Below, piece by piece: positions 1,064 to 60,665 of a stretch of 64,000 nucleotides of DNA (positions are counted from its first letter, which is position 1; each line of letters begins with the position of its first letter). The notes below the pieces were generated by a model, which saw nothing but the letters and a program-made list of their open reading frames with translations, made no database searches and had not been told where the DNA came from. The DNA comes from Sphagnum magellanicum (taxonomy: Eukaryota > Streptophyta > Sphagnopsida > Sphagnales > Sphagnaceae). Where the stretch lies: contig CM038911.1 in the NCBI GenBank assembly GCA_021904315.1, positions 20,929,390 to 20,993,389 of the forward strand, in the 5' to 3' direction. The translations under genes and the position numbers were made by a program.

Positions 1064-1320
1064 CACTAGAAGAAAAACCTTTATTTACAACTAGTGTTTA
1101 CAACTGTTTTTTAGTCAAAAGAGACATTTTATAACTAACTGTCTAATAGTCGCCTAAGACAAGTTACAGACGACAAATAGTCGTAAAACATTACATTAGG
1201 ATGATGTCATCAAATAGTAGATGAAGCCTACATTTAGTATAAATTGTTTCATCCGATGGGGCCAGTATATACATAATGTATACAAGGCATCATTTTGCGA
1301 CTATAAATTGCAACTATTTT
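1064..1320 (+). repeat. CACTA left TIR and subterminal repeat zone
   Basis: The terminal inverted repeat starts with CACTAG. It is followed by repeated short motifs on both strands: TAGTCGCC near 1148, TAGTCG near 1186, and GCGACTA and GCAACTA near 1297-1315. Short subterminal arrays of this kind bind transposase in known CACTA elements. That role is inferred here. Confidence 0.7.
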
Positions 1321-2159
1321 GGTGGATCCAAACTCCAACCATGTGGAAACACATGTTAACTCTTGAAATACTTTCGATTAACTAATGGGTTGTTGCCACA
1401 TGGCATGGTTTCTAATATTTGGGAAACCAGATTGTGATATTGGATGATCTAGAATTTTCTAAATCTTATGGTTAAGAAATGGCCACGTCTTTTGTGTTTG
1501 GCTAATCAAAATGTGCCACGTGTCTCATTATGAGCATCATGACATTTGAATATTTATTAAAAAACCCTAGATATATCCCATTCATCAAATGTCAAGAATG
1601 AGGATCTTGACACGTGTCACATTATTATTTGAATGGAAATTTCAAATTTGCCACATCTTTTAAAAATCGAATAATAGAAACTTGCCACATGACAATGTTA
1701 AATAATTTGGAAAATATTTTTATTGAAAAGGAATAATGGACCCTAGTTTAACATTATGAATTGAGGTTAGCATTTTAGGGTTTAATTAACAATGTTCTAG
1801 GGTTACGGTTACCATGGCTCACTAATCACACACAAAATGGACATGGAAAATGGTTTCCATTGAGTTAATAAAAACTCAATGAGCACATTCACATTAAGTT
1901 TTGCAAAGATGGAAAAATGTTTTGTATTGAACATGGGTTCCTACCTTAATGTAATCAACAATACTTAACTTGAATAACTAAATGATCCAAGTCCAAAAAG
2001 GAGCAAGTAGATGTTTGGATATCTAACACCAAGTGCGTCATTGCACTGTTCACATGTGCCATCAACCCTGGCATTAACGACCCCATCATGACCTACATTC
2101 ACAAAGAATTCACCAATGTTTATGTCGTTCAAGTAAAGTGATACACAGATTGTGAGGTG
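1321..2159. other. CACTA interior, no gene recognised
   Basis: AT-rich sequence between the left subterminal zone and the captured ATPase fragment. It contains G-box-like CACGTG near 1516 and 1612 and several CCACATG motifs. The minus-strand open stretch at 1965-2195 begins inside the ATPase relic (GDGIND) and then runs into sequence that does not match that family. Confidence 0.4.
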
Positions 2160-5100
2160 TTGGCAAGTCATTAATGCCATCCCCAACCATTGCAACTACT
2201 GTTCCATCTGCATGAAGTGACTATATTGCTTTTGTCTTCCCAGCATGTAATACTTCTGCCATTACATCCATGATGCCCACATGCCAAATCAAAGAAAAGT
2301 AGGGCAAGTTATTTGTCTGTAAGAAGAGTAGAGCCATAACAATCAAAAGGAAGCTACTACTGCAAGTAGCTCTTTCTGAGATATGATGCTGGAAGTTTCA
2401 GAAATAAATCCTACTTTAAGGGCCAGGACTATGGACATTAATTGACATCATTGGGTATTCTTGTTCTTTTAGTGATTGGGCAAGATCTGATTCACAAGCA
2501 AAGGAATGAGTAAGGGAAGAAAGCATATTCCAAGAAACACATGCCATTAGAGTACTATAAGAAGAAAAGAACAAACCTCATCTGCCATAGATCTAGCAGT
2601 TTGCTAATTGTTGCCAGTGACTAGAATGCACTTGATATCCATACTTTTCAGGCCCTCCACCACAACTGCTGCATCTTGTTTCAAGGGATCTGAATGTTAA
2701 TAACACTTGCTACAGCCCCATCAAAGGCTACTATAACAACTGTCTGAGCCCATTGTTTGTTTCTCTTGCAAATAATCTTCTGTGGCCTTTAAAAGATGGC
2801 CGCACCTGAGTTGCTCATCAGATTCTAATTGCCAACCTGGTTAAAAGTTTCAAAAAAATCTCAGCATACACCATGAAAACCTTCCCAAGCCCTAGATATA
2901 AAACAAGCTGAAAGATCAATGAGAAAATGCAGAAATCTTTAGCTGTAAGAATAATGGTAACTCACCAATATGCACTTAACAATGCACTCCCTTGCCAGGA
3001 ATATTTTCAAATGAGGAAGCTGATTTCATCCAACTTGTATCTCTACTTCTCAGTGTGTGTGCAGCTTTCAGGGTTGGGGGTCCTCTAAATTCCAGAAAGT
3101 AATGTGTGTAGTCCACAATTGCTTTTGCCAATGCGTGCTCACTGCCAGCTTGTTTCAAACTGAACATTTTAAAGTTCTAGCTAGCAGAAAACACAATGAG
3201 CCAAGAAGAACAGGGGAGGAGAGAGCCTGGACTGAAAGCTCCCAACAGTGGAGAAAAGGTTATGGTTCCCAAACGAATAACACATTCAAACAAAACACAA
3301 CAAGTGAAAACCATGAGCTAACCTCTGCTAATGCAACCAGCGTAAGAAAGTCAGCCAATGGAGTCTTGTTGTACATTCTCTGGTTCATAACTGCAGGTTT
3401 TCCTTTTGTCAAAGTGCCTGTCTTGTCAAACACCACACACCACACTTTGTGGGCATGTTCCAAATACCAGTTGCAACTATAACAGCTATTGGTGTTGCCA
3501 GTCCCAGGGCATATGGACAAGCAATAACAGTCACCGAATTGCAAACATAAAGTGATTAGTGCTGGTGGGGAGCCATGAGTCAGGGTATGACCCTAGTTTC
3601 CTAGTGATGTATCTCTCCAATGTTGCAACATAAATTAGTTTTTTTCAAAATAAACACATGTACTGCTTATGCAAATCTTCAATAGAAAACCAGATAGCTA
3701 CTTCTTGGAATTATTACTTGCCCAAAAGTCATTAGACCAATGCATTAAACTCAGGCATTCCTAGGCCACATCAGTTTATGCCCAAACTTGAATTAAGGTC
3801 TAGGTTGCAGAAAACACTCACCAGCCAAGAAAGTGGTGATAATCATTGAAACAACAATTGGAACAAAAATGCTGGCAACCTGTCCAGAAGACACAGCAAA
3901 CCAAAGCATGAAACCCAGCATCTATTCTGCACAAACAGAATTCAAGAGTATTATTTGCATACACTCACAGTATTTTGTCTACTACATAGTCTCATGCAGC
4001 AAGCAATCTAGTTCAGCAGCTTGTAAAATCAATCCTATCAATCAAATTCAAGTTACACTCAAACTCAGGGGTTGGATTCGAACAGAAACAAGGTGAGTGC
4101 TCACATACAGGACTAAGAAGAGAACCTAATGCAACAACTAAAATCACATACAATCAGACATGGATATTTATCTACAATAACCAACTCATTAACAATCTAT
4201 TTCAAGCAAGAAAGTTGTTGTAAGAACGTACACAATCAGCAAACTTCTGTATAGGTGTTTTTGTCATCTTGGCAGCTTCCACCATGTTGATAATCTGTGC
4301 AAGTGTAATGTCATGTCCAACCCTCATGGCCCTTATGTGCGTGACTCCATTCATACTGAGAGTGCCATCTATAACAGAATCACCCATCTTGTTTGCAGTT
4401 GGTGAAAACTCCCTAGTGATCATGCTCTTGTTAACAGGACTGGCCCCACACACAATTATCCCATCAGCTGGCACCTTTGCCACAAGTGGGACTTTCAGCA
4501 AATCACCCCTCTGAATTAACTGCACATTGCACAACAATTGCATTATAGTCAAGATCTCCACCATGTGCCATGATGGAAAAGAATCTTAAGTAGCAAAAAA
4601 ACTAATATTATGAGTTCTTCCCTTTGTTAGATGATAAAAGGTGAACATCTTCACAATCCCTCCCTTTGCTGGTAAAGTCAGATTTGACTAGAGCTCTCAC
4701 AAAAGTCCTACACTTTGGTGGAGCTAATCACATGCAATGGAAGTAATAGCATTGGTGCAAATGGATGTAAGGTTTAGGGTTTAGGGAAAATGGATTTTGT
4801 ATTGAATTATAAACAATGCAAGAAGAATTAATTGTTTTATTTACTGTAGAGTAAATGTGTAGCTTTCATTATCAGGAACAACATGTAGGTAATCAAGACA
4901 ATACTAAAGTCTACTGTGAACAGAATTGCTGTGGTAGGAGCAAGCTCTAGAAGCTTCCCAATGGCCTCTAAGGTCTTCCCTTTGGCAAGAGACTCCAAGT
5001 ACTTTCCAAGGAGTACAAATGAAAAAAACATGGCACTTGTCTCAAAGTATGTTGTTGCAGGAGAACCTGTAACTGCACCATACAGGAGTCCACAAACAAA

Positions 5101-5714
5101 GTATACATATGCTGTTGTGGTGCCTAATGTCACAAGCACATCCATGTTGGCGGAACCCTGCCACAATGAGTGGTAAGCCCCAACATAAAACTGCCAACCA
5201 ATAATGAACTGGACGGGTGTCACTAGTGTCCACTTGAGCCAGTCCAACAGCAAGAAGAGCCCACATTGTAGGACTAGAAAATATTGGAAAACCACAATAT
5301 GTGGACAGACAACTCCAATAAACACCACATGTATATGTTTACAATTGCAGTTCATACCACAACTGATCAGTTGACATAAAGATGCAACCTCAATAATTTA
5401 TACACCCTTGAGCACCAATCACATGAATGTTTATGAATCCTTCAACCCAACAATAATGAAAATGCACAATGATGTATAATGTCCTCATCAAGGAAAATAC
5501 ATCAAATGGTAATCGAACTCACATTGAAAGCACAACTCCACAGGAACAACTGATACATGTGCCCAACCTCTGTACCATAATCAGACAAAACTTGTGTGTA
5601 GGGGTTGGGCAAGACCACTTTGTAACAGCTAGCTCCAATGTTCTCCACTGCATTAGCAACAGCCCTCAGACCAGTCAAATCTGAATCTATGGATGTCTCC
5701 ACCTTTCCAACCAT
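2160..5714 (-). pseudogene. Captured fragment of a P1B-type copper-transporting ATPase (HMA5/HMA7-like), broken
   Basis: In plants this family pumps Cu(I) across the plasma or Golgi membranes. Minus-strand exons appear in family order. About 5714-5525 is the segment after the metal-binding domains. About 5340-4914 holds transmembrane helices (CPHIVVF, NMDVLVTLGT, FVLLGKYLESLAKGKT). About 4545-4232 is the actuator domain. About 3886-3822 reads VASIFVPIVV. About 3560-3340 holds the CPC helix and the phosphorylation site FDKTGTLTKGK. About 3167-2980 is HALAKAIVDY…PGKGV. About 2850-2580 is the nucleotide-binding domain. About 2290-2160 ends in MVGDGIND. The N-terminal CXXC domains and the last helices are missing. 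Broken points: CPC reads CPY, TGE reads TRE, TGDN reads TGNN, and there are in-frame stops and a frameshift after CPY. GT-AG introns remain. It is not functional as a pump. Confidence 0.85.
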
Positions 5715-5897
5715 GGCACTAACTATAAATTCTCATACACCCTTCAGGTCACAAAGTACCTCTTCAACACTCTTCATGTCCTCATAATTGTTCATACCCA
5801 CCTGCTTGCCTGCTTAGATCTTTTATCAGTGGTCTTGTGAGGATGAATCAGAGCTCAGGGGTAGGAATTGTGGGGTTTGTGTGTTTGTGATGTTCAG

Positions 5898-8000
5898 GAC
5901 AATGTCTTTGTGATTATGGTGGCATCAGTGCAATATCGAGCACACATTGAGACTGCTGAAGATGCCTTCTATAAGCTCATGAATTCACGGGAACAAATCA
6001 AATCATATGTATTTGATGCTAAGTATAACAGTCCTTGTTGTAAACAATTGATGTAATTGGTATCATATTTCAATGAGTAGGCCTTATGTTTAAGCAAAAT
6101 GGCAACTATATAGACATATATATATGTGTTCTTCATGTGATCAGGTTCCAATTCTGAGCAGAATGTTGTTATTTGTTTGTGAGTAGTTGTGTGAGCCAGT
6201 GTACGAAGGATGCTTCTTGATGATGTTTTTGAGTAGAAGAATGACATTGCAAAGAATGTAGAAGAAGAACTTGAGAAGGTCAATTTTCTTTATTCCTTTC
6301 TGATAGCAACCATTTTTGTTTCACCTGGTAGCAGTTTGAGAATGCTTTTAGTTCTCCAACCCTAGCTGGAGTAATGGAAGATGTGGGTATATGTAACAAT
6401 TAATAGATGATTCTAACAGTTTATCTTTTGTTGACAAAAATATTGCAGGCCATGCGGAATTATGGGTATGAGATTGTGCAGACTCTCATTGTTGACATTG
6501 AACCTGATGAGATTGTCAAGCGGGCCATGAACGAAATCAATGCAGGTGAGGAGACTCATGTCTCTCTCTTATGTTCTTTTGTCCCATGCTCCAGTTCAAT
6601 GTTAAACTGGCTGCTCTTCAAGATCTATTCTCTAATGCAAATTGATGTCAACTTAGTGGTTGATACAAATTAGGAGAGAGAGATGGTCTTCTTCAGCAAG
6701 TCAAGTTTTTCTTGACCAGAATTATCTTGAATGAACCTGCAATTTTATAGATTGTGAAGATCTGTGAACCAAATAAGTGCATTTTTTCTTGATTACAGTT
6801 GCAAAGTTGAGGGTGGCTACTCGGGAGAAGGCAGAGGCAGAGAAACTCTTCAGGTGAAGCGATGTCGCAACCCCACTTTGGGCAAAGTGGGAGAATGCAA
6901 CTCCCACTCCCAAAAGTGGAAACTTGGAGTCCTCCGGGACTCCCAAAAACTCAGAAGACAATTTGAGGGGTCAAATCTACTTGCCTTGATGCGTTCTTTA
7001 TATAAATGGAAAGCTCTTGAAGCGTAGATGTCCAAAATGGCCTCGCATTGCTCATTTGGACATCTGCAGCCCAAGTTAGGGGCAAAAGAAGGGCCGGGAG
7101 TCAAATTGCTAGTTTGACTCCCGACCACTAAAAGTCGGGAATCGACCTCTTCCCGACGTCGCCTCAAGGAATGCGACAGGCGTTGGAAAGCTCTCAACGA
7201 GAGCTACAACTTTGGTTTAGAGCTCGTCCCAAGCCAAGCTCGGGGCGAGGAGCTGTGGCCGTCCAAAGTCCCGGGACTCCAACCCTGGATAGTTTCGGGA
7301 CTCCAACTTGGGAGTCTTGGGAAAAATGGCCATTTGGATGTAGCCTCGGTGAAGAGCTGCAAAGAATACTATATGGGGGAAGGTGGTGGCTTCCCCTGAG
7401 TCCGGGCTGTGGTGAGTCAAGTAGTCCAAAGTGCCCGTGGCTTGTCCCAACACCCAAAGGTGTTCCCGAATGTGAACTAACCCTCTTGTGGTTGGTTTTG
7501 GATGCAGATTCATGCTTGATCTTCTAATCCATCTTCCTAGTCTAATCCCAAGACTTATAGCATGCCCCTCTACCCCTCTTTAGTGTTGGAAGTTGGGAGT
7601 GCCCCTCAAGTCCCATTTTTCCGCAACTACACATAGTTGGACCCTCGAGTGGGTTCAACCCGGGACTTGGGAGTGCGTCAAGTGAGCAGAGGGGGAGGCA
7701 GAGGCAAAGTATCTTTCAAGAGTGGGTGTTGCACGTCAGCGTCAGGCAATTGTTGATGGCTTGCGGGAAAGTGTTTTAGCCTTCTCAGACAATGTTCCAG
7801 GGACAACACCTAAGGAAGTTATGGACATGGTGTTGGTGACATAGTACTTTGACATAATGAAAAAAATTGGTGCAAGCTCCAGGAACTCCACGGTGTTCAT
7901 CCCACATGGTCCTGGTGCTGTGCGTGATGTTGCAAAGCAAATGTGTAATGGTTTATTGCAAGGGCAAGCTGGCCATATGAATAACATGGCAATTGTTTAA
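5898..8000 (+). pseudogene. Captured fragment of an HIR (hypersensitive-induced reaction, SPFH/prohibitin-like) gene, broken
   Basis: HIR proteins are membrane-raft SPFH-domain proteins linked to plant immune signalling. The exons seen are 5898-6020 ([15 protein letters not shown]…YVFD), ~6195-6278 (ASVRRMLLDDVFE-stop-KNDIAK), 6449-6545 ([21 protein letters not shown]), ~6797-6862 (KLRVATREKAEAEK) and 7681-8000 (EGEAEAKYL…[12 protein letters not shown]…[13 protein letters not shown]), ending in TAA at 7998-8000. The first ~70 residues of a normal ~285-residue HIR are absent. Lesions are TAG at 6234 and at 7842 (both CAG in the family), a one-base deletion near 6850, and an 818 bp solo LTR inserted in the exon at 6863. 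Intron borders are kept (donors at 6279 and 6546, acceptor before 6449). It lies head to head with the ATPase fragment inside one CACTA element. Confidence 0.9.
6863..7680 (+). mobile_element. Solo LTR, copy 1 (inserted in an HIR exon)
   Basis: It starts TGTCGCAACC and ends GGGAGTGCGTCA, giving the TG…CA ends of an LTR. It is flanked by agcga (6858-6862) and agtga (7681-7685), a 5 bp target duplication with one C-to-T change. Removing it restores the continuous HIR exon (…VKR then [10 protein letters not shown]). Three more copies occur in the window (12465, 19120, 57373). No internal domain or second LTR is present, so this is a solo LTR left by recombination. Open stretches inside it are not genes. 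Confidence 0.85.
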
Positions 8001-9159
8001 GCGACACTTTTCTTTGAATGGGTATTACAACAGACTATGTCTGCCCATTGTTGAAGGCTTGCACAAGAGAATATTCTAGAAATTTGTACAAATAAAAGTA
8101 GTCAAAATTGCAAAAACATTAGTTTCTTTTCATATAAAGCTAGTACTCTGAGAGCATTCTACACTGAAATCTCATTAGAATCTGTAATGCAACTAGATTT
8201 GTATGTGTGTTTACAGTTTATTGTCAGAATAGTATGTGTACTTGATTGAGCATTGTCTGACTTCCCAGTGATTTGCATCAATGGATTGGTTTTCCCTTGC
8301 AAAAGTGTTTATTTTCAGACAAGATTCATTTCCATTTTAGCTCACTTTCACATATGTTTGTTGTAGATTGAATAAGGAGACTAGGTATTCATTAGCTATG
8401 CCTTTTGGGTGCTTGCTGAAATTGTGGTCGAAGCTTGTTGCAGATTGAATCAGGAGACTAGGTATTCATTAACTATGCCTTTTGGGTGCTTGTTGAAATT
8501 GTGGTCAAAGTTTTCTTGTTGCTTTAAGAATGTGATACATATTTAATGTTGAAAATTATCTGCACCCTACCTTCCGCACGTATGCCTATCTCATCTCACA
8601 AGCTGCAACAACATAAACAATAACTCTCTTCAACTAGGGTACAGCAGACTTAAAACCACTCAAAATGCTTGACATGGGTTAACAGAATTCCTTAGTACCA
8701 AGTCCATAACTTCCTTAGGTGTTGTCCCCTATTAGACTGCAACACATAAATCTGGGCAAATATATTGGAACACTAATTTGGAAAACCACATAAGGCATGT
8801 AATATGACTTGGGTATAATCTGTATATTATTTTAAACAAATTTGACATAAATAAACTAGACAAAAACTAAGGTGATGTATGCAATACATATTCAAGTATG
8901 CTTTAAATACAATTTACATACAATTTAAATACAACCATTATACATAACCAGTAATATATGGGTACATCTTAGTATGTACCCATATAATAATGAGTAAAAT
9001 ACATTCAATACACAATTATGGACCCCTTGTGCCTAAAATATGTATAATACATTTGGAATACTCACAGGGCTATGACTCATTTGGTGACATTTGCAACTAA
9101 TGGTAGGTAGAGGGGTCTTCTTGGATGGAAATTATATTGAAAACTATCCAAATGAAAGG
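8001..9159. other. CACTA interior downstream of the HIR fragment
   Basis: Probably HIR 3' untranslated and flanking sequence carried along with the capture, then AT-rich filler. Apart from the ~78 bp direct duplication at 8356-8510, nothing recognisable was seen. Confidence 0.4.
8356..8510 (+). repeat. Direct tandem duplication, two units of ~78 bp
   Basis: The unit at 8356-8433 is repeated at 8434-8510. Both contain GGAGACTAGGTATTCATTA and TATGCCTTTTGGGTGCTTG, with only a few substitutions. It lies just after the captured HIR coding end, inside the CACTA element. Confidence 0.85.
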
Positions 9160-9318
9160 ATGAAAAAATCCATTAGTCGTAAGTTAGTCATAGAGTAGTT
9201 GCAAGCGGCTTCAAATGCAAAAAGTAGTTGTAGATATAACTAACAATAGTTGTAAATGTCAAATAGTCGCAACTAGTCGCAAATTTGTTGGTTACAAAAT
9301 CCTAGTTTTCTTCTAGTG
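9160..9318 (-). repeat. CACTA right subterminal zone and TIR
   Basis: It reads inward from the right end as CACTAGAAGAAAAC. It carries clustered TAGTCGC, TAGTTGC and TAGTTGT motifs (for example two TAGTCGC about 10 bp apart near 9279-9293). The motif family is the same as at the left end. Confidence 0.7.
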
Positions 9319-12464: not shown

Positions 12465-13287
12465 TGACGCGCTCCCAAGTCCCAAGTTAGCCCCAAGTTG
12501 GGACTAAGTCATTCAAATTGCGGAATTTTTGGACTCAGGGCACGCTCCCAACTTCCAGCACTAAAGGGGGGGTGAGAGGGGCGTGTTGAAAGCTCCGAGA
12601 TAGATTAGGAAGAGAGACAAGTTTATTCAATTACACGGTCCTGCATCCAAATCCAACCAACAAGTTGGTTAGAACTCATTTTGCACCCTTTTGGTGTTGG
12701 GACAAGCCACGGGCTACCTTGGACTCACTTGACTCGCCACGGCCCGGACTCGGGGGAAGCCACCACCTTCCCCCATATAGTATTCTCTGCAGCTCTCCAC
12801 CGCACTTGCATCCAAATGGCTCTTTTTCCTGGGACTCCCAAAGTGGAGTCCCGAAATTGTCCCGGTTTGGATTCCCGGGACTTTGGACGCTCATAACTAT
12901 TCGCCCCAAACTCAGATCGGGACAAGGTCTCAACCAAAGTTGTAGCTCTCCTCGAGATCTTTCTAACAGTGTGTTGTACGTCACCTGCACGCACCGGAAT
13001 CGGGTCGATTCCCGACTTTTAGTGGTCGGGAGTCAAATTGCCAGTTTGACTCCCGGCCCTTCTTTCGACCATAACTTGTGTTGCAAATGTCCAAATGGCT
13101 CATGCAAGGCCATTTTGGACATCTACACTTCAAGACCTTTCCAATGGTATAAATAACGCCTCAATGCAAGGTGTTTTGACCCTTGCAATTGCGCTCTGAG
13201 TTTTTGAGAGTCCCGGAGGACTCCCAAGTCCCATTTTTGGAAGTGTGAGTGGCGACCTCACAACTCCCTCAAAGTGGGGTTGCGACA
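12465..13287 (-). mobile_element. Solo LTR, copy 2
   Basis: In plus orientation it begins TGACGCGCTCCCAAG and ends GGGGTTGCGACA, the reverse complement of copy 1. It is flanked by atatt (12460-12464) and gtatt (13288-13292), four of five bases matching as a target duplication. Internal similarity to copies 1 and 4 is high, including the shared block around CATTTTGGACATCTAC and the 'cccccatatagtat' stretch. It accounts for all open stretches between 12665 and 13156. Confidence 0.8.
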
Positions 13288-30321: not shown

Positions 30322-30739
30322 CACTAGAAGAAAAATAAATATTTTTGACTAGTCTTTACAACTAAATTTTAGTTGCAAATGACATTCACGACTAAAATAT
30401 CATTAATCACTTTGGATAAATTGCATGTTATATTAGTTGCAAATGACAAGGGGTATTAGATGAATAAAAAAGTCAACAAATACAAGTTCATCTTTTGACT
30501 CCATTGTATATGTATTGTCACATGTGATTAAGATATAATTATTTTGGTCATAATTGAAAACAAATGATGTGATGCCACATGTCCCAATATTTAATTATTT
30601 AAAATATATACATTATTATTGTTTTGAAATAATTTAAGATGTTCAATTCAAATGTTTGGATGATTTCATATTATGATACATGGCCCAATGTAAATATGCC
30701 ATGTGGCATTTAAAAATGAATTTAATATAAAATATTAAT

Positions 30740-32074: not shown

Positions 32075-33220
32075 CACTAGTAAAAAAAAAACTTGAAAAC
32101 TCAATATATAGTTTTTTGAATTGAAATATTAATTTCAGATTCCAAAAGGAAAATTCAAAAATCAACTTTTGGATCAAATAAGTCTTTTGAATTTAAATAA
32201 AAAAAATTTAGAATTGAAATATAAATTTTCAGACTCAAATAAAGATATATTCAAAATTGAAATGTCCATTTTTAGAGTCAATTAATAATTTTCTGACTTG
32301 AAATATTAATTTTGAGAATCCAAAATAATAATTCAGAATTGCAATTTCAACTTTCAAATAAAATAAGTTTTAGAAATTTAAATTAAAAAATTCAGGATTG
32401 AAAGATTAATTCTTAGAATGAAAAATAATAATTTAGAATTCAAATATCAATATTTAGATAAAAAAGGCTTTTGATTTTAAATAAAAAAGTTCAACTTCAA
32501 ATAATGTTTTGAGGAATTGAAATAACAATTTTCAGATTCAAACATCAAGTTTAAAATTCAAATTATTTTCTTAAAGACTTGAAAGAATAGTTTTCAGAAT
32601 TGAAATATAATTTTTCAGATAATTTTTTTTAAATAAGTTTTTTATAAAGAATTCAGAATTGAATGATTAATTTTTAGATTCAAATAGATTTTTTCAAATT
32701 CAAATAAATAAAAAATAATTCCAATAAGAATTTTTAGAATAAAATGTCAATTTTCAAATTCATTTTTTAAATTTAGTAATTTAAAAATGAATTGCAACAA
32801 TAATTTTCAGAATTCAAACATTGGTTTTAATGTTTTAAATATATTTTTGAATACAACTAACATTTTATAGAATTCATATTTAAAACTTCAAATTCAAATA
32901 ACAATTTTTGGAATTCAAATAAAGTTTTTAGAATTGAAATGAAAATTTTCAGATTTGAATAACAATTTTCATATTCAAATATTGATTTTTACATTCAAAC
33001 AAAATGTTTCACAATTGGAATAACAATGTTTAGACTCAAATAATGATTTTAAATTAAATTAAAAGAATTCAGAATCCAAATAAAAAATTTCAAATTCATA
33101 TAACTTTTTTTAATATTTAAATATCAATATATTATATTCCAATATAATTTTCAGATCTCAAATATCAATTTTCATATTTGAATAATAAATTTCAGAGTTC
33201 AAATATTAATTTTTAAATTC
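32075..33220 (+). repeat. AT-rich minisatellite in CACTA copy A
   Basis: About 1.1 kb of degenerate units of ~18-20 bp, typified by TTTTCAGATTCAAATA and TTTTCAGAATTGAAAT. It starts at an internal CACTAGTAAAAAAAA motif (32075) that resembles a TIR. The matching block in copy B starts at 59243. Confidence 0.75.
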
Positions 33221-33611
33221 ATTATATGAATAATATACATACATATGCTTAATTAATAGACACACAAATATATATTTATGATACATGTAACATATCATAA
33301 ATATAATAAATTTTAATACATACATAAAAATACACCCCTATGTCTTCATTAAATACTTTTAGGATGCAATTAATTTTGTGACTATTGTGATTAATGGGAC
33401 ATATCAATCTATTAATGGATGAAAATAAACTTCAAAACCATCCAATCGATAGGATGAAGTTTCCAATAATTGCATCATAGTTGTAAAAATGATCAAAATA
33501 ATTGAAATTTGATCTTATCATTGTAAATATTCCCAAATTTAGTCGCAAATGACTATAAGTCACATGTAGTTGCCAAAAGAGTGGTTACATTTTGGCTGAT
33601 TTTTACTAGTG

Positions 33612-52049: not shown

Positions 52050-52800
52050 CTAGATGACCTCAATGCCAAGAAAGTAACGCAACTTTCCCAAATCCTTCAT
52101 TTCAAACTTTTGTTTCAAAAGCTTCTTCAAATCAGAGATGTTTGCATCACTATCTCTTGTGATAATCAAGTCATCAACATAGATGACTATGACTACAATC
52201 CCATGATTTGTCTTTTTCACATATAGTGAAAAATCTGCATTGGATGTTTGAAATCCACTTATGACAAGATACTGACCTATCTTGTCTAACCAAGCTCTAG
52301 GTGCTTGCTTCAAGCCATACAAAGTTTTTTTCAACCTACAAACCAAATTAGGATGTGTTTGGTCCACATAACTTGGTGGTTGTTCCATGTACACTTTTTC
52401 ATGTAAATCTCCATGAAGAAAAACATTCTTTACATCCATTTGATGTAAAGACCATCCTTTTGTTGTTGCCATAACAATGATTGCTCTTACAGTTGTCATT
52501 TTGGCAATTAAACTATAGGTCTCCTCATAGTCTATGCCATAAGTTTGGGCATAACCTTTGGCAACTAATCTTACTTTGTATCTGCTCATAGATCCATTTG
52601 CATTGTGTTTGACTTTGTACATCCATTTACACCCAATTGCTTTTTTGTCCTCTGGTAAAGCTACCAATTCCCAAGTAGCATTTGCATCCAAAGCCGCCAT
52701 CTCTTCATCCATGGCATTGTCCCATTTAAGGTTTCCAACCGCTTGTTCAAAACAAATGGGTTCAACCTTTTGTATAACTTTCACCATGTATGCGTAATGA
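52050..52800 (-). pseudogene. Copia reverse transcriptase
   Basis: 245 codons open on the minus strand. They cover the whole palm and fingers of a Copia RT: WELVALPEDKKAIGCKWMYK, LVAKGYAQTYGIDYEET, QMDVKNVFLHGDL, YGLKQAPRAWLDKIGQYL, and the catalytic YVDD (IYVDDLIITRDS). The YVDD box is intact, but the frame is closed on both sides and the rest of pol is broken. MDVKNVF in place of the usual MDVKNAF is another C-to-T change. Confidence 0.9.
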
Positions 52801-53302
52801 TGAGCTACAAAGCCATCATATGTGTGGGTCTTTATACATGGTACTTGATTCGTGTGGATCTTCGTACTCCACTGTTGTTGTCAGGTGTTTTCAAAACTTT
52901 TTTGGCCATTTGAGCTCTAGGAGTAGTAAGTGAAGGGATTTTTGATTCTTCACCCACACTCTTATCTAAATCACTTGACTCATCATCTACATGAGGATTT
53001 CTAGATGATGTTTGAGAACTATCATGTACAATGTTTAAAGATCTTAATTTTCATTTCCATGGAGTGCTACTGGACCCATTAATTGAAGACTCTTGTGGTC
53101 CACTTATTAATTGTGATTCTTGTTCCACATTTGATGAAACATCACCATTTCTTGTTTCTCCATCTTCTGCTATTTTTAGTGGTGAGTACCAATTAGTCAT
53201 CTCATCAAACACAACATTTCTACTCACTTGCAACTTTTGAATGGAAGGATTGAAGCATCTATATCCTTTTCATTTTGAAGAATATCCAATGAAAATACAT
53301 TT
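52801..53302 (-). pseudogene. Copia integrase-RT linker
   Basis: Minus-strand sequence between the integrase and RT domains contains a segment with VSRNVVFDEMTNWYSPLKIA (53233-53051), typical of the chromodomain-free Copia linker. It has frame breaks on both sides. No catalytic motif is expected here. Confidence 0.7.
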
Positions 53303-54470
53303 CTAAGCTTTTGGGTTTAATTTTGATCTCTTATTGTTAGGAACATGCACGTATGCAATGCAACCAAACATTCTGAGGTGTGAAACATTGGGTTTCTTGC
53401 TTGTGAATTTTTCTTCAGGTGTCATGGCATGAACTACCGTTGTGGGTGTTCGATTCATGATATAAACTGTAGTTGCTACCACTTCAACACAAAAGTAATT
53501 TGGCAAATTCTTTTCATTCAACATGGCATCTGTTATTTCTACAATGTGCCGATTTTTCTTTTTAACAATTCCATTCTGCTGTGAGGAATAACTACATGAA
53601 TACTTCTTTTGAATTCCATGCTCCTTCAAGTACTCACTGAATTCATTTGAAAAATACTCTTCCCCTCCATCGGACCTTAGGCATTTGATGTTCACACCCT
53701 TCTCCTTCTCCACCATTACTTTGAAATTCAAAAAATGTTGAAACACTTCATCTTTGTGTTTCATGAAGTAGACCCACACCTTCCTTGTGTGGTCATCAAT
53801 GAAACTCACGTAGTATTTGCATCCTCCAATGGATTCTATTTTCGTGGTCCACACATCTAAGTGGATCATTTCCAAAGGTTTGGAACTTACATGAGTTGTT
53901 TGAGCTGGGAATGGATGCTTAGCTTGTTTCCCCAATTGGCATGCTTCACAAACTTCTGACATCACCTCTTCTATTCCAAATTTGGGAAGACCTCCAACAA
54001 AATTTTGTTTCTCCATTAATTTAAGATGTTGGAGATTAACATGGCCAACCTGCTTGTGCCAAATTCCAATGTCTCCAGCTCCTTTTTTATGTGTGAATAA
54101 CATGGAATTCACCTCATGTATGTTCACATCCAAGGTGAACATTTGTCCATTCCTTTCCCCTTTTGCAATCAATTTGCCTTGGTTTTTCATGTCTTCCACA
54201 AAACATCCATTTGGGTTGAATGTCACATGTAAACCTTGTTCCACCATTTGGCCTATGGAGACCAAATTTTTGTTATGGTTGGAACATGAAGTACATCTTT
54301 CAGGTATTTTGTTTGTTCATCTTGCATGGACAATGGCACCTTGCTAATTTGTGTGATGGGATGTGTAGTGTTTTCATTAGTTTCCACAAACCCTGGTGTT
54401 TTCAAATCCTTTGTGTCTCTAAACCATTCTCCATGAATAGTCATGTGGTTTAAAGCTCCATAATCCACAT
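53303..54470 (-). pseudogene. Copia protease end and integrase
   Basis: The protease active site, normally DSGA, reads DYGA (within DYGALNHMT near 54460). Integrase follows. The zinc-binding HHCC part is HKQVGHVNLQHLK…CEACQLGKQAKHPFP. The core has D in LDVWTTK and D in RSDGGEE, but the third acidic residue, expected in the NGVAERKNR box, is lysine (NGIVKKKNRHIVE). The C-terminal part includes NRTPTTVVHAMTPEEKF and LRMFGCIAYVHVP. Loss of the catalytic glutamate and the protease serine means it cannot act. Confidence 0.9.
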
Positions 54471-54529
54471 ATTAGACATTATTATCTTATACACCTCCTA
54501 TCATTGAATTTGCCATGTGTTGCATCACA

Positions 54530-55490
54530 AACAATTATTCATCACCTTGATTATTAATTGATGCATAATTCCCTTGTTATTGTTTTCCATTTCATGCATC
54601 ATGCTCCCTTTGATAACAGTTCTTTGCCATGTGCCTAGGTTTCCTGCAATAGTAACAATTTGAGTCATTATTTGGTTGTTGACCTCGATGACTTCCACAA
54701 CAACCTTCATGACTTCCTCGACTTCCTCTTCCTCCAAAGTTTCATGGTCCACCTCCATGAGCTTGACCTTCATGTTGATGATGTCCACCATGCGAGATTC
54801 CGTGTCGACCTCGAAATGAGGTTTTACCACCTCTACCTCTACCTCTATTAGTATTTGAGTAGAAAGCATTTTCTTGTGATCCTCCATTGGATGAAGTACC
54901 AACAATTATCATCTCTTCACTTATAAGTAATGTTATTAAGTCTTGGAAATCGGGAAATGTTTCACGAACTACAATTGAAGTACGAAACTAGCTATAGTCT
55001 TTTCCAAGTCCATTCAAGGTGATGGCCATTAGATCTTCATCCTCTACAAGGGCTCCTATAAATGCAAGAACATCTGCAAGGTTTTTCACCTTTGTAAAAT
55101 AGTCATTGATGTTCATCTTGTTTTTCTGTAGATTATGCAACTCTTGTTTGAGTTGCATTTTGCGAGCTTGTGTATTGGTGCTATACATTTTCACCAATGT
55201 ATTCCAAGCTTGCTTGGGTGATTTTGCATCTTGAATATGCACAATCATGGAATCAGACACACTCATAGAAAGCCAATACAAAACTTTCCTTGCTTTTTCA
55301 TGCCAAGTTTTATTGGCTTGAATTTTGTTGTTGTGTGGGGTTTTTCTGGGAGAAGAGGTTCTTTCTCATCATTAGTTATGAATTTTTAATAGCCTTTCCC
55401 CATCAAGAAATTCATAATCCTAAATTTCCACACTTGGAAATTGTTCTTGTCTAGTTTTTCAATTGCAATTTGAGAAAGACCGTTCGCCAT
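54530..55490 (-). pseudogene. Copia gag
   Basis: It starts at ATG 55490 (MANGLSQIAIEKLDKNNFQV), with the usual gag opening (KLDKNNFQVWKFRIMNFL). A TAA soon follows (GY-stop-KFIT, from CAA). The UBN2-like capsid part lies at 55281-54988 (SPKQAWNTLVKMYSTNTQAR; LKQELHNLQKNKMNINDYF). A CCHC zinc knuckle, CYYCRKPRHMAKNC, lies near 54660-54610. Frameshifts separate the pieces. It would have formed the virus-like particle shell. Confidence 0.85.
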
Positions 55491-57372: not shown

Positions 57373-58181
57373 TCACGCGCTCCCAAGTCCCTTGTTAAAC
57401 TCACTTGAGGGTCCAACTATGTAGAGTTGTGAAAAGTGAGGACTTGGAGCTCGCTCCCGACTTCCAGCACTAAAAGGGGGGTAGAGGGGCGTGTTAGAAG
57501 TCTCGGGATTAAACTAGGAAGAGGGACTAGATTATCACGTTCGAATCTGCATCGAAAACCAACCACAAGAGGGTTAGTTAGCATTCGGGAACACCCTTGG
57601 GTGTTGGGACAAGCCACGGGCACTTTCACACACAAGACTCACCACGGCCCGGACTGGGGGGAAGCCACCACCTTCCCCGATATAGTATACTCTGTAGCTC
57701 TCTGCCAAGGCTACATCCAAGTGGCTCTTTTTCCCGGGACTCCCAAGTTGGAGTCTCGAAATTGTCCCGGGACTTTGGATGTTCGTAGCTCTTCACCCCG
57801 AACTCGGATCGGGATGAGGTTTGAACCAAAGTTGTATCTTTCGTCGAGAGCTTTTCAACGCCATGTTGCACTCCTTGAGGCGACGTCGGGAAGAGGTCGA
57901 TTCCCGACTTTTAGTGGTCGGGAGTCAAACTGCCAGTTTGACTCCCGGCCCTTCTTTTGCCCATAACTTGGGCTTCAGATGTCCAAATGGCCCATGCGAG
58001 GCCATTTTGGGCATCTACACTTCAAGAACTTTTCATTGATATAAAGAACGCAACAATGCAAGGAGATTTGACCCCTCAAATCGTCTTCTGAATTTTCAGG
58101 AGTCGTGGAGGACTCCAAGTCTCCCATTTTTGGGAGTGTGAGTTGCATTCTCACACTTAGCCCCAAAGTGGGGTTGCGACA
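57373..58181 (-). mobile_element. Solo LTR, copy 4, nested in CACTA copy B
   Basis: In plus orientation it starts TCACGCGCTCCCAAG (family TGACGC, one change) and ends GGGGTTGCGACA. It is flanked by identical acacc at 57368-57372 and 58182-58186. CACTA copy A holds a single acacc at the same point (31075-31079), which proves both ends and the duplication. Open stretches within (57417-58166) are not genes. Confidence 0.92.
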
Positions 58182-59242: not shown

Positions 59243-60270
59243 CACTAGTAGAAAAAACCTTTGAAACTCAATCAATAATGTTTTGAATTAGAATATAAAT
59301 TTAAGATTCCAAAATAATAATTCGGAATTCAAATATCAATTTTAGATCAAATAATTTTTTTGATGTTAAATAACAACTTTCAGAATTAAAATGTCAATTT
59401 TCAGATTCAAATAATAATATTCAAAATTAAAATGTCCATTTTAAGACTCAATTAATAATTTTTTGAATTGAAAGATTAATTTTGAGAATCCAAAATAATA
59501 ATCTGGAATTAAAATTTCAATTTTGAAGTAAATAATTTCTTAAAATTTAAATTAAAAACTTCAAAATTCAAATATCAAATTTCAAGTTCAAATAAAAAAA
59601 TTTAAAATCAAGTTGTCGATTTTTAGATTCAATAAATTTTTAAAAACTGAAATGATAATTTAGAATTCAAATATCAATTTCTAGATCAAATAATTTTTTT
59701 GAATTTAAATAACAATTTTCGGAATTGAAATGTCAATTTTTGGATTCAAATAACAATATTCAAAAATTGAAATTTCCATTTTTAGACTCAAGTACTAATT
59801 TTCAGACTTGAAGTTTCAATTTTGAAAATACAAAATAATAATTTGGAATTTAAATTTCAGGTTTGAATCAAATGATTATTGAAAATTTAAATGCAAAATT
59901 TTTAGAGCTGAAATATAAATTTTCATATTCATATAAAAATATTCAAAATCAAAATGTTTATTTTTTAATCAATTAATAATTTTCTGAATTGAAATACTAA
60001 TTTTTGGATTCAAAAATATTAATTTGAAATTCAAAATCAATGTTTAGATCAAATAAGTTTTTTTGAATTTAAATTGAAAATATTATATTCAGATCAAAAA
60101 TTTCAAATTCAAGTACTATTTTAAACAATTGAAATAATCATTTTCAGATTCAAATATCACATTTCAAATTTTAATATATATTTAAAAAAATTAACATAAC
60201 AGTTTTTAGAGTTGAAATATCAATTTTCAGATTTGAATAAAAAAATTCAAAGTTCAAATATTAATTTTGA
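59243..60270 (+). repeat. AT-rich minisatellite in CACTA copy B
   Basis: Degenerate ~18-20 bp units of TTTTCAGATTCAAATA type. It starts at an internal TIR-like CACTAGTAGAAAAAAC and is colinear with 32075-33220. Confidence 0.75.
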
Positions 60271-60665
60271 GATTCATTATATGAACAATATACATACGTA
60301 TGCATATTATATATATATAATTTTACTACATACATTAAAATACACCCTTATGGCATTGTAGAATACCTTTAGGATGCAATTAATTTGGTGACTATTGCAA
60401 CTAATGGGACATATCAACCTATTAATGGATGAAAATAAATGTAAAATTGATGTAACCAATAAGATGAAAATTTTAATAGTTGCATCATAGTTAAGAAAAT
60501 GACCAAAATAGTTGAAAGTTGGTCGTGTAGTTGCAAGTATTCCCAAATTTAGTCGCAAACGACTACAAGTTGCATGTATCGTAAATGAAGTGGTTACATT
60601 TTGGCTGATTTCTACTAGTGTTTTAAGCTTTAGATTTCTTTCAACTTTCTCATTCAACAACCTAA

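Follow-up and report, generated by a model that had tools for sequence, protein, structure and literature searches.

Probable stepwise capture of two unlinked host genes by a CACTA-type element of Sphagnum magellanicum

Introduction

Can a single transposon bring together two host genes that are neither related nor linked, and can the order of their arrival still be read in the genome? This question is raised by positions 1064–9318 of a stretch of 64 000 nucleotides from Sphagnum magellanicum (C5:20929390–20993389), hereafter called the window, in which fragments of a copper-ATPase gene (RAN1/HMA-like) and of a HIR gene lie head to head between two CACTA ends. The assembly searched for related sequences comprises 439 Mb in 31 contigs. 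The results indicate that the segment is very probably a non-autonomous Pack-CACTA element that took HMA and HIR from unlinked sources, HIR first.

Structure and copies of the element

The region from 1064 to 9318 is one CACTA-type element, delimited by an exact inverted pair of CACTAGAAGAAAA at 1064–1076 (plus strand) and 9306–9318 (minus strand). These terminal inverted repeats (TIRs) start with CACTA at both ends, as is typical of the CACTA (En/Spm) superfamily, and the left one is found at the same end of other copies, in some of them with point changes. Short repeats such as AATAGTCGC are present near both ends. The left arm (1064–2158, 1095 bp) is 93–97% identical in copies with and without the HMA fragment. 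A genome search with the right arm (8725–9318, 594 bp) located it, among the best 40 of 286 candidates, at a minimum of 40 places; the window is counted among these, and one match is partial. The pattern CACTACAAGAAAA, which differs from the element's own end, occurs at 106 and 92 genome places, compared with 36 and 47 for the reversed control. Ten frames of the element were run through Pfam and four gave a match; no transposase domain was found among these ten, the remaining frames lying outside the scan.

The further copies with the same TIRs that a first-pass annotation of the window had proposed to look for do exist. In a search of the genome with the whole element (best 40 of 6675 candidates scored; counts are lower bounds), left arm, HMA, HIR and right arm were found together in three more places: L029 (C11:9703032–9711346) and L030 (C13:5856670–5864969), both collinear with the window copy, and L033 (C5:11062295–11070116), with the same HMA joints. 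There are thus at least four copies carrying HMA and HIR and at least 40 right arms, the multi-copy state with cargo that characterizes Pack-CACTA elements.

The 3-bp flanks match in six of the 10 copies with two ends: L029 (ATA; its right end is mutated and the position was set by extrapolation), L030 (CAT), L033 (AAA), L034 (TAT), L040 (ATA) and L041 (ACA). Agreement is partial in L036 and L042 (two of three positions) and in L035 (one of three). Because three other copies share the contents between the same ends, with matching 3-bp flanks, the two ends belong to one element. That two TIRs were paired by chance is ruled out, since other copies have the same two ends and contents, and the possibility considered in the annotation, that the TIRs are ends of separate elements, fails on the same observation. 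The annotation had described one CACTA element with two unrelated host genes, divergent and with introns retained, and the ends and contents shared with other copies bear this out.

Origin of the captured genes

The HMA fragment (2157–5799, minus strand, introns included) was delimited by Pfam, by alignment with RAN1 and by comparison of copies. An E1-E2_ATPase match (6.1e-20, at 4205–4585, minus strand) lies above the Pfam cut-off; a second E1-E2_ATPase match and a Hydrolase match both lie under the curated cut-offs. Physcomitrium RAN1 (1009 aa) aligns piecewise over residues 221–890 at 5801–2161 (minus strand). The annotation had the fragment covering nearly the whole catalytic core; it breaks off inside the GDGIND exon, at 2157–2158. 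In the window copy the TGE of the A-domain is changed to TRE, the GASNGVLIKGGDALE stretch is lost, and there are stops and an internal deletion. The CPC of Physcomitrium RAN1 is replaced by CPY in the window copy, in L029 and L030 and in the source described below; in L033 this motif was not found.

A plant HIR sequence aligns piecewise at 5880–7970 (plus strand), and one element frame gives a Band_7 match under the curated Pfam cut-off. The fragment consists of a first part from exon 2 onward, introns included (5796–6862, plus strand), and of the last coding exon with its 3' flank (7681–8706, plus strand). It contains in-frame stops. Both captured genes thus still have introns and, as judged from its sequence, the window copy encodes neither a copper-ATPase nor a HIR protein.

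The source of HMA was located at C6:4.78 Mb (L031), where 4092 bases match L030 at 97.1%. Beyond the breakpoints this locus continues with a metal-binding exon on one side and with the C-terminal part of a RAN1-like gene on the other. A Sphagnum balticum protein of 555 residues spans both breakpoints, and the C6 locus is therefore an ordinary gene position; that it could be another copy of the element is ruled out by this protein and by RAN1 homology passing both breakpoints. The element arms have no match within 16.5 kb around this source. Besides CPY for CPC, the C6 gene has a frame break ahead of DKTG, so that the source could itself be a paralogue in decay. A further HMA paralogue, at C12:9162856–9166742 (67–85% by exon), has no stops in its seven matches.

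The source of HIR lies at C5:12080663–12082237 (L045). Its exon matches contain no internal stops, a judgement based on the exon matches with splice sites outside the check; one stop occurs where a match overruns the exon edge. The locus is followed by a nuclease-like gene, one exon of which matches Exo_endo_phos at 4.4e-4, under the curated cut-off. The stop-free exon matches, the adjoining gene and the lack of a CHG footprint (see below) rule out that this locus is a copy of the element, and the element arms have no match within 9.9 kb around it. It also holds the longer flanks that are present in bigger elements of the family: L036 (C5:14727635–14739250, 11.6 kb) carries longer stretches of this neighbourhood, one of them inverted.

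Captured genic DNA, the other hallmark of Pack-CACTA elements, can thus be traced to its origin for both fragments. The two sources are unlinked, one on C6 and the other on C5, and neither (16.5 kb on C6, 9.9 kb on C5) has a match to the other gene. The annotation had asked whether HMA and HIR might be neighbours outside any element; at the source loci, over these stretches, they are not.

Order of capture

Three members of the family (L034, L035 and L042) carry HIR without HMA, and two (L040 and L041) carry neither. The two-gene element corresponds to an L034-like element in which L034 positions 1939–3984 have been swapped for the 4.09 kb of HMA. The left HMA joint reads GAGGT in the element and GTGCTGG in the source, the right one TTGAAA in the source and AAGCC in the element, with a 2-bp overlap at each. 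These joints would fit template-switching repair, without being proof of it. Trees of the arms, tried as a means of ordering the copies, were star-like, weakly supported and uninformative.

A 27-bp filler at the right-arm joint (8702–8728, minus strand) is an exact inverted copy of positions 7800–7826 of the HIR exon. The same exact inverted filler, 25–27 bp long, is found in L029, L030, L035 and L042, four of the six other copies tested, which points to template-switching repair in this Sphagnum family.

The family has also carried pieces of other genes. A query assembled from L040 and L034 sequence matches COP9 signalosome subunit 6b at 3.6e-13, revealing a CSN6-like piece (PF13012 at 3.5e-4, under the cut-off), and L038 contains an ARMT1-like piece (5.3e-4, also under the cut-off). 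A DUF639-like identity, suspected for part of the older cargo, was not confirmed by Pfam. Since family members contain these further gene pieces, the combination of two genes represents one stage of a longer history.

Three telomere-like TTTAGGG units were observed at the joint that precedes the HIR piece in L034 (4103–4142), L035 (4175–4214) and L030 (5979–6018); coordinates are flipped for copies on the minus strand.

Changes private to the window copy

About 0.9 kb that is held by L030 (between its positions 5447 and 6345) is gone at 5796–5799 of the window, the joint of a private deletion recognized by comparison with L030. A 4-bp overlap at this joint leaves the exact size ambiguous. The deletion took out HIR exon 1 and the second metal-binding region, and because of it HMA and HIR are closely spaced in this copy. 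The spacing of about 180 bp reported in the annotation is therefore real here, but private. The divergent orientation, presented there as a striking arrangement, is likewise real but requires no special cause, since HIR was present first, HMA was swapped in later and the deletion drew the two together.

The HIR exon is interrupted at 6863–7680 by an 818-bp TG...CA segment with 5-bp flanks AGCGA/AGTGA, which is best read as a solo long terminal repeat (LTR). None of the other copies compared has it at this site, and its interpretation as an intron is ruled out, as those copies and the source have no insert there. The HIR exons annotated at 5898–8000 do contain HIR matches, but this segment is not part of the gene. 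Relatives of the insert occur in the window at 57375–58181 (84.5%) and 12465–13287 (77%) and, among the genome matches listed, at 18 or more other near-full places. A 77-bp tandem duplication (8358–8511, plus strand) is not common to the other copies compared.

Mutation footprint

C-to-T (or G-to-A) changes were counted at alignment columns in which the remaining copies are all identical; the p-values are uncorrected for multiple tests. The HMA part of the window copy has changed at 54 of 341 CHG sites versus 32 of 1097 CHH sites (p = 1.5e-15), and a CHG excess is also seen in the HMA part of L029, L030 and L033 (p from 0.0003 to 0.005). The HMA source has no such excess (2/313 CHG versus 9/1198 CHH, p = 1). 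The HIR part of the window copy has changed at seven of 65 CHG sites versus 15 of 398 CHH sites (p = 0.02), with an excess also in L029, L030, L034 and L042 (p from 0.015 to 7e-7), and again there is none in the source (1/73 CHG versus 13/554 CHH, p = 1). CG sites are few (4/17 changed in the HMA part of the window copy, 4/22 in its source).

The simplest reading of this pattern is that the element copies are CHG-methylated and that the parent genes are not. Such a footprint fits a silenced, decaying transposon and offers no support for lasting silencing of the parent genes. The annotation had suggested a regulatory effect of the element on these genes; with a CHG excess seen in element copies but at neither source locus, that suggestion finds no support here.

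History of the element and alternative explanations

The following sequence of events is very probable. An older family member took in a block in which the HIR gene (C5:12.08 Mb) was accompanied by fragments of other genes. It was shortened, apparently by a repair event, which left the inverted filler of 27 bp next to the right arm. A copy with HIR then gained 4.09 kb of the RAN1-like copper-ATPase gene (C6:4.78 Mb) and lost about 2 kb of inner sequence; somewhat in preference to other routes, we attribute this gain to template switching during the repair of a break or an excision gap. The two-gene element subsequently reached four or more places, presumably with transposase supplied in trans. 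The window copy was then probably silenced, lost about 0.9 kb, gained the LTR-like insert and the 77-bp duplication, and decayed.

Several observations do not fit this history easily. L033 is rearranged, with an inner piece deleted and HIR partly inverted. The inverted filler sits at the right-arm joint and not at the HMA joints, and in two of the six copies tested for it (L034 and L043) no exact inverted match at that joint reaches 15 bp. Overlaps as short as the 2 bp seen at each HMA joint can be due to chance, and they also fit the model of neighbouring insertions with complementary deletions, as summarized in PMC13317346. L043 has no marked CHG excess (1/50 CHG, 4/373 CHH), and a mutation footprint is only an indirect sign of methylation. 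The flanks of the window copy, TAA and ATT, agree at none of three positions, and its own insertion event is consequently unproven.

The last point leaves room for a different origin of this copy, as two elements fused by recombination or as an insertion whose flank was altered later, only the other copies being clean insertions. The contrast with the six copies that have matching flanks speaks for such an origin. It is nevertheless unlikely, since the segments of the window copy are collinear with L029 and L030 save for its private changes, its arms are both of the ordinary family type (in trees that are star-like and weakly supported) and three other copies have imperfect flanks as well. A more serious competitor concerns the repair step, in which alone it departs from the capture by template switching favoured here: two family copies may have inserted in the HMA gene so as to flank 4.1 kb of it, with complementary end deletions and later mobilization of the hybrid. 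This route is described for Pack-CACTA (PMC13317346) and Pack-TYPE elements (PMC8903248) in the sections available, and it is favoured by the left and right parts of the two-gene element, both of which consist of ordinary family sequence. We regard it as a real, if less probable, possibility: in the 16.5 kb surrounding the HMA source (L031, L032), matches to the window element are confined to the captured segment, other family loci also match that region (matches of 150 bp or more) only in this segment, and the inverted filler suggests template switching in the family, albeit at another joint.

It is also conceivable that the captured genes were retained owing to a regulatory effect of antisense or hairpin RNA, transcribed from the element, on the HMA and HIR parent genes. 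The divergent orientation, the long similarity to the parents and the 27-bp inverted copy of the HIR exon inside the element would suit such a role. With no CHG C-to-T excess at either source locus and with broken gene fragments in the window copy, we consider it very improbable.

Neighbouring repeats

Two more CACTAGAAGAAAA ends are present in the window, at 30322 and 56652; their first 53–65 bases are 75–79% like the element's left end, and they apparently belong to other subfamilies. A pair of short, mutually related elements (32075–33611 and 59243–60620) has CACTAGTA-type ends; they are internally repetitive, about 69% alike and have unmatched flanks (TAA/TTA and TAA/TTT). Open frames at 52050–54905 (minus strand) resemble, as judged by eye, a Copia-type retrotransposon polyprotein.

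A predicted HIR-like protein of 287 aa, CY35_11G059500 (P0007), is 100% identical over residues 166–287 to the last HIR exon of L029. Because of this identity, the public gene model is placed inside a transposon copy, and it serves as a caution that such models can sit within elements of this kind. We would give little credence to the more ambitious idea that this Sphagnum family serves the host as a platform on which new genes are assembled and that the HIR gene of L029, next to its captured copper-ATPase fragment, may be expressed in slightly remodelled form. If true, old copies would be silenced while young copies offer new HIR genes to the host.

Comparison with known systems

The present family is a case of stepwise multi-gene capture in a bryophyte, with unusually clear intermediates, and its sources, intermediates and joints are readable in one genome. 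Models of capture, template switching versus paired insertion, thereby become testable, and a methylation-type mutation footprint in copies but not in parents provides a simple sequence test for trans-silencing.

Multi-gene capture by CACTA elements is already known from flowering plants, and no earlier report of gene capture by CACTA elements in Sphagnum or another moss was found in the available portions of the literature searched. The closest parallels, as described in the available sections of each report, are the following. Tgm-Express1, a CACTA element of soybean, contains exonic and intronic regions of five unrelated host genes (PMC1947982). It resembles the Sphagnum element in that both are CACTA elements with exon and intron regions of several unrelated host genes; it differs in residing in a pigment gene of soybean, with chimeric transcripts demonstrated (PMC1947982), whereas the Sphagnum element belongs to a multi-copy family of a bryophyte, with sources and order of capture traced, and is known from sequence alone. 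In Chenopodium, host gene fragments are likewise captured inside CACTA elements, with Rubin and Levy cited for the mechanism (PMC8978399). The pieces reported there include an 80-bp AP2 fragment (PMC8978399), while those in Sphagnum are multi-kilobase and retain introns.

Pack-CACTA and Pack-TYPE elements are TIR-bounded, non-autonomous CACTA elements that carry captured coding DNA; in maize this DNA often derives from more than a single locus (PMC8903248). The Sphagnum element resembles them in these respects. They are described from Arabidopsis, rice and maize, where tandem insertion and re-mobilization have been proposed (PMC8903248); the intermediates of the Sphagnum family, by contrast, reveal a stepwise capture accompanied by templated filler.

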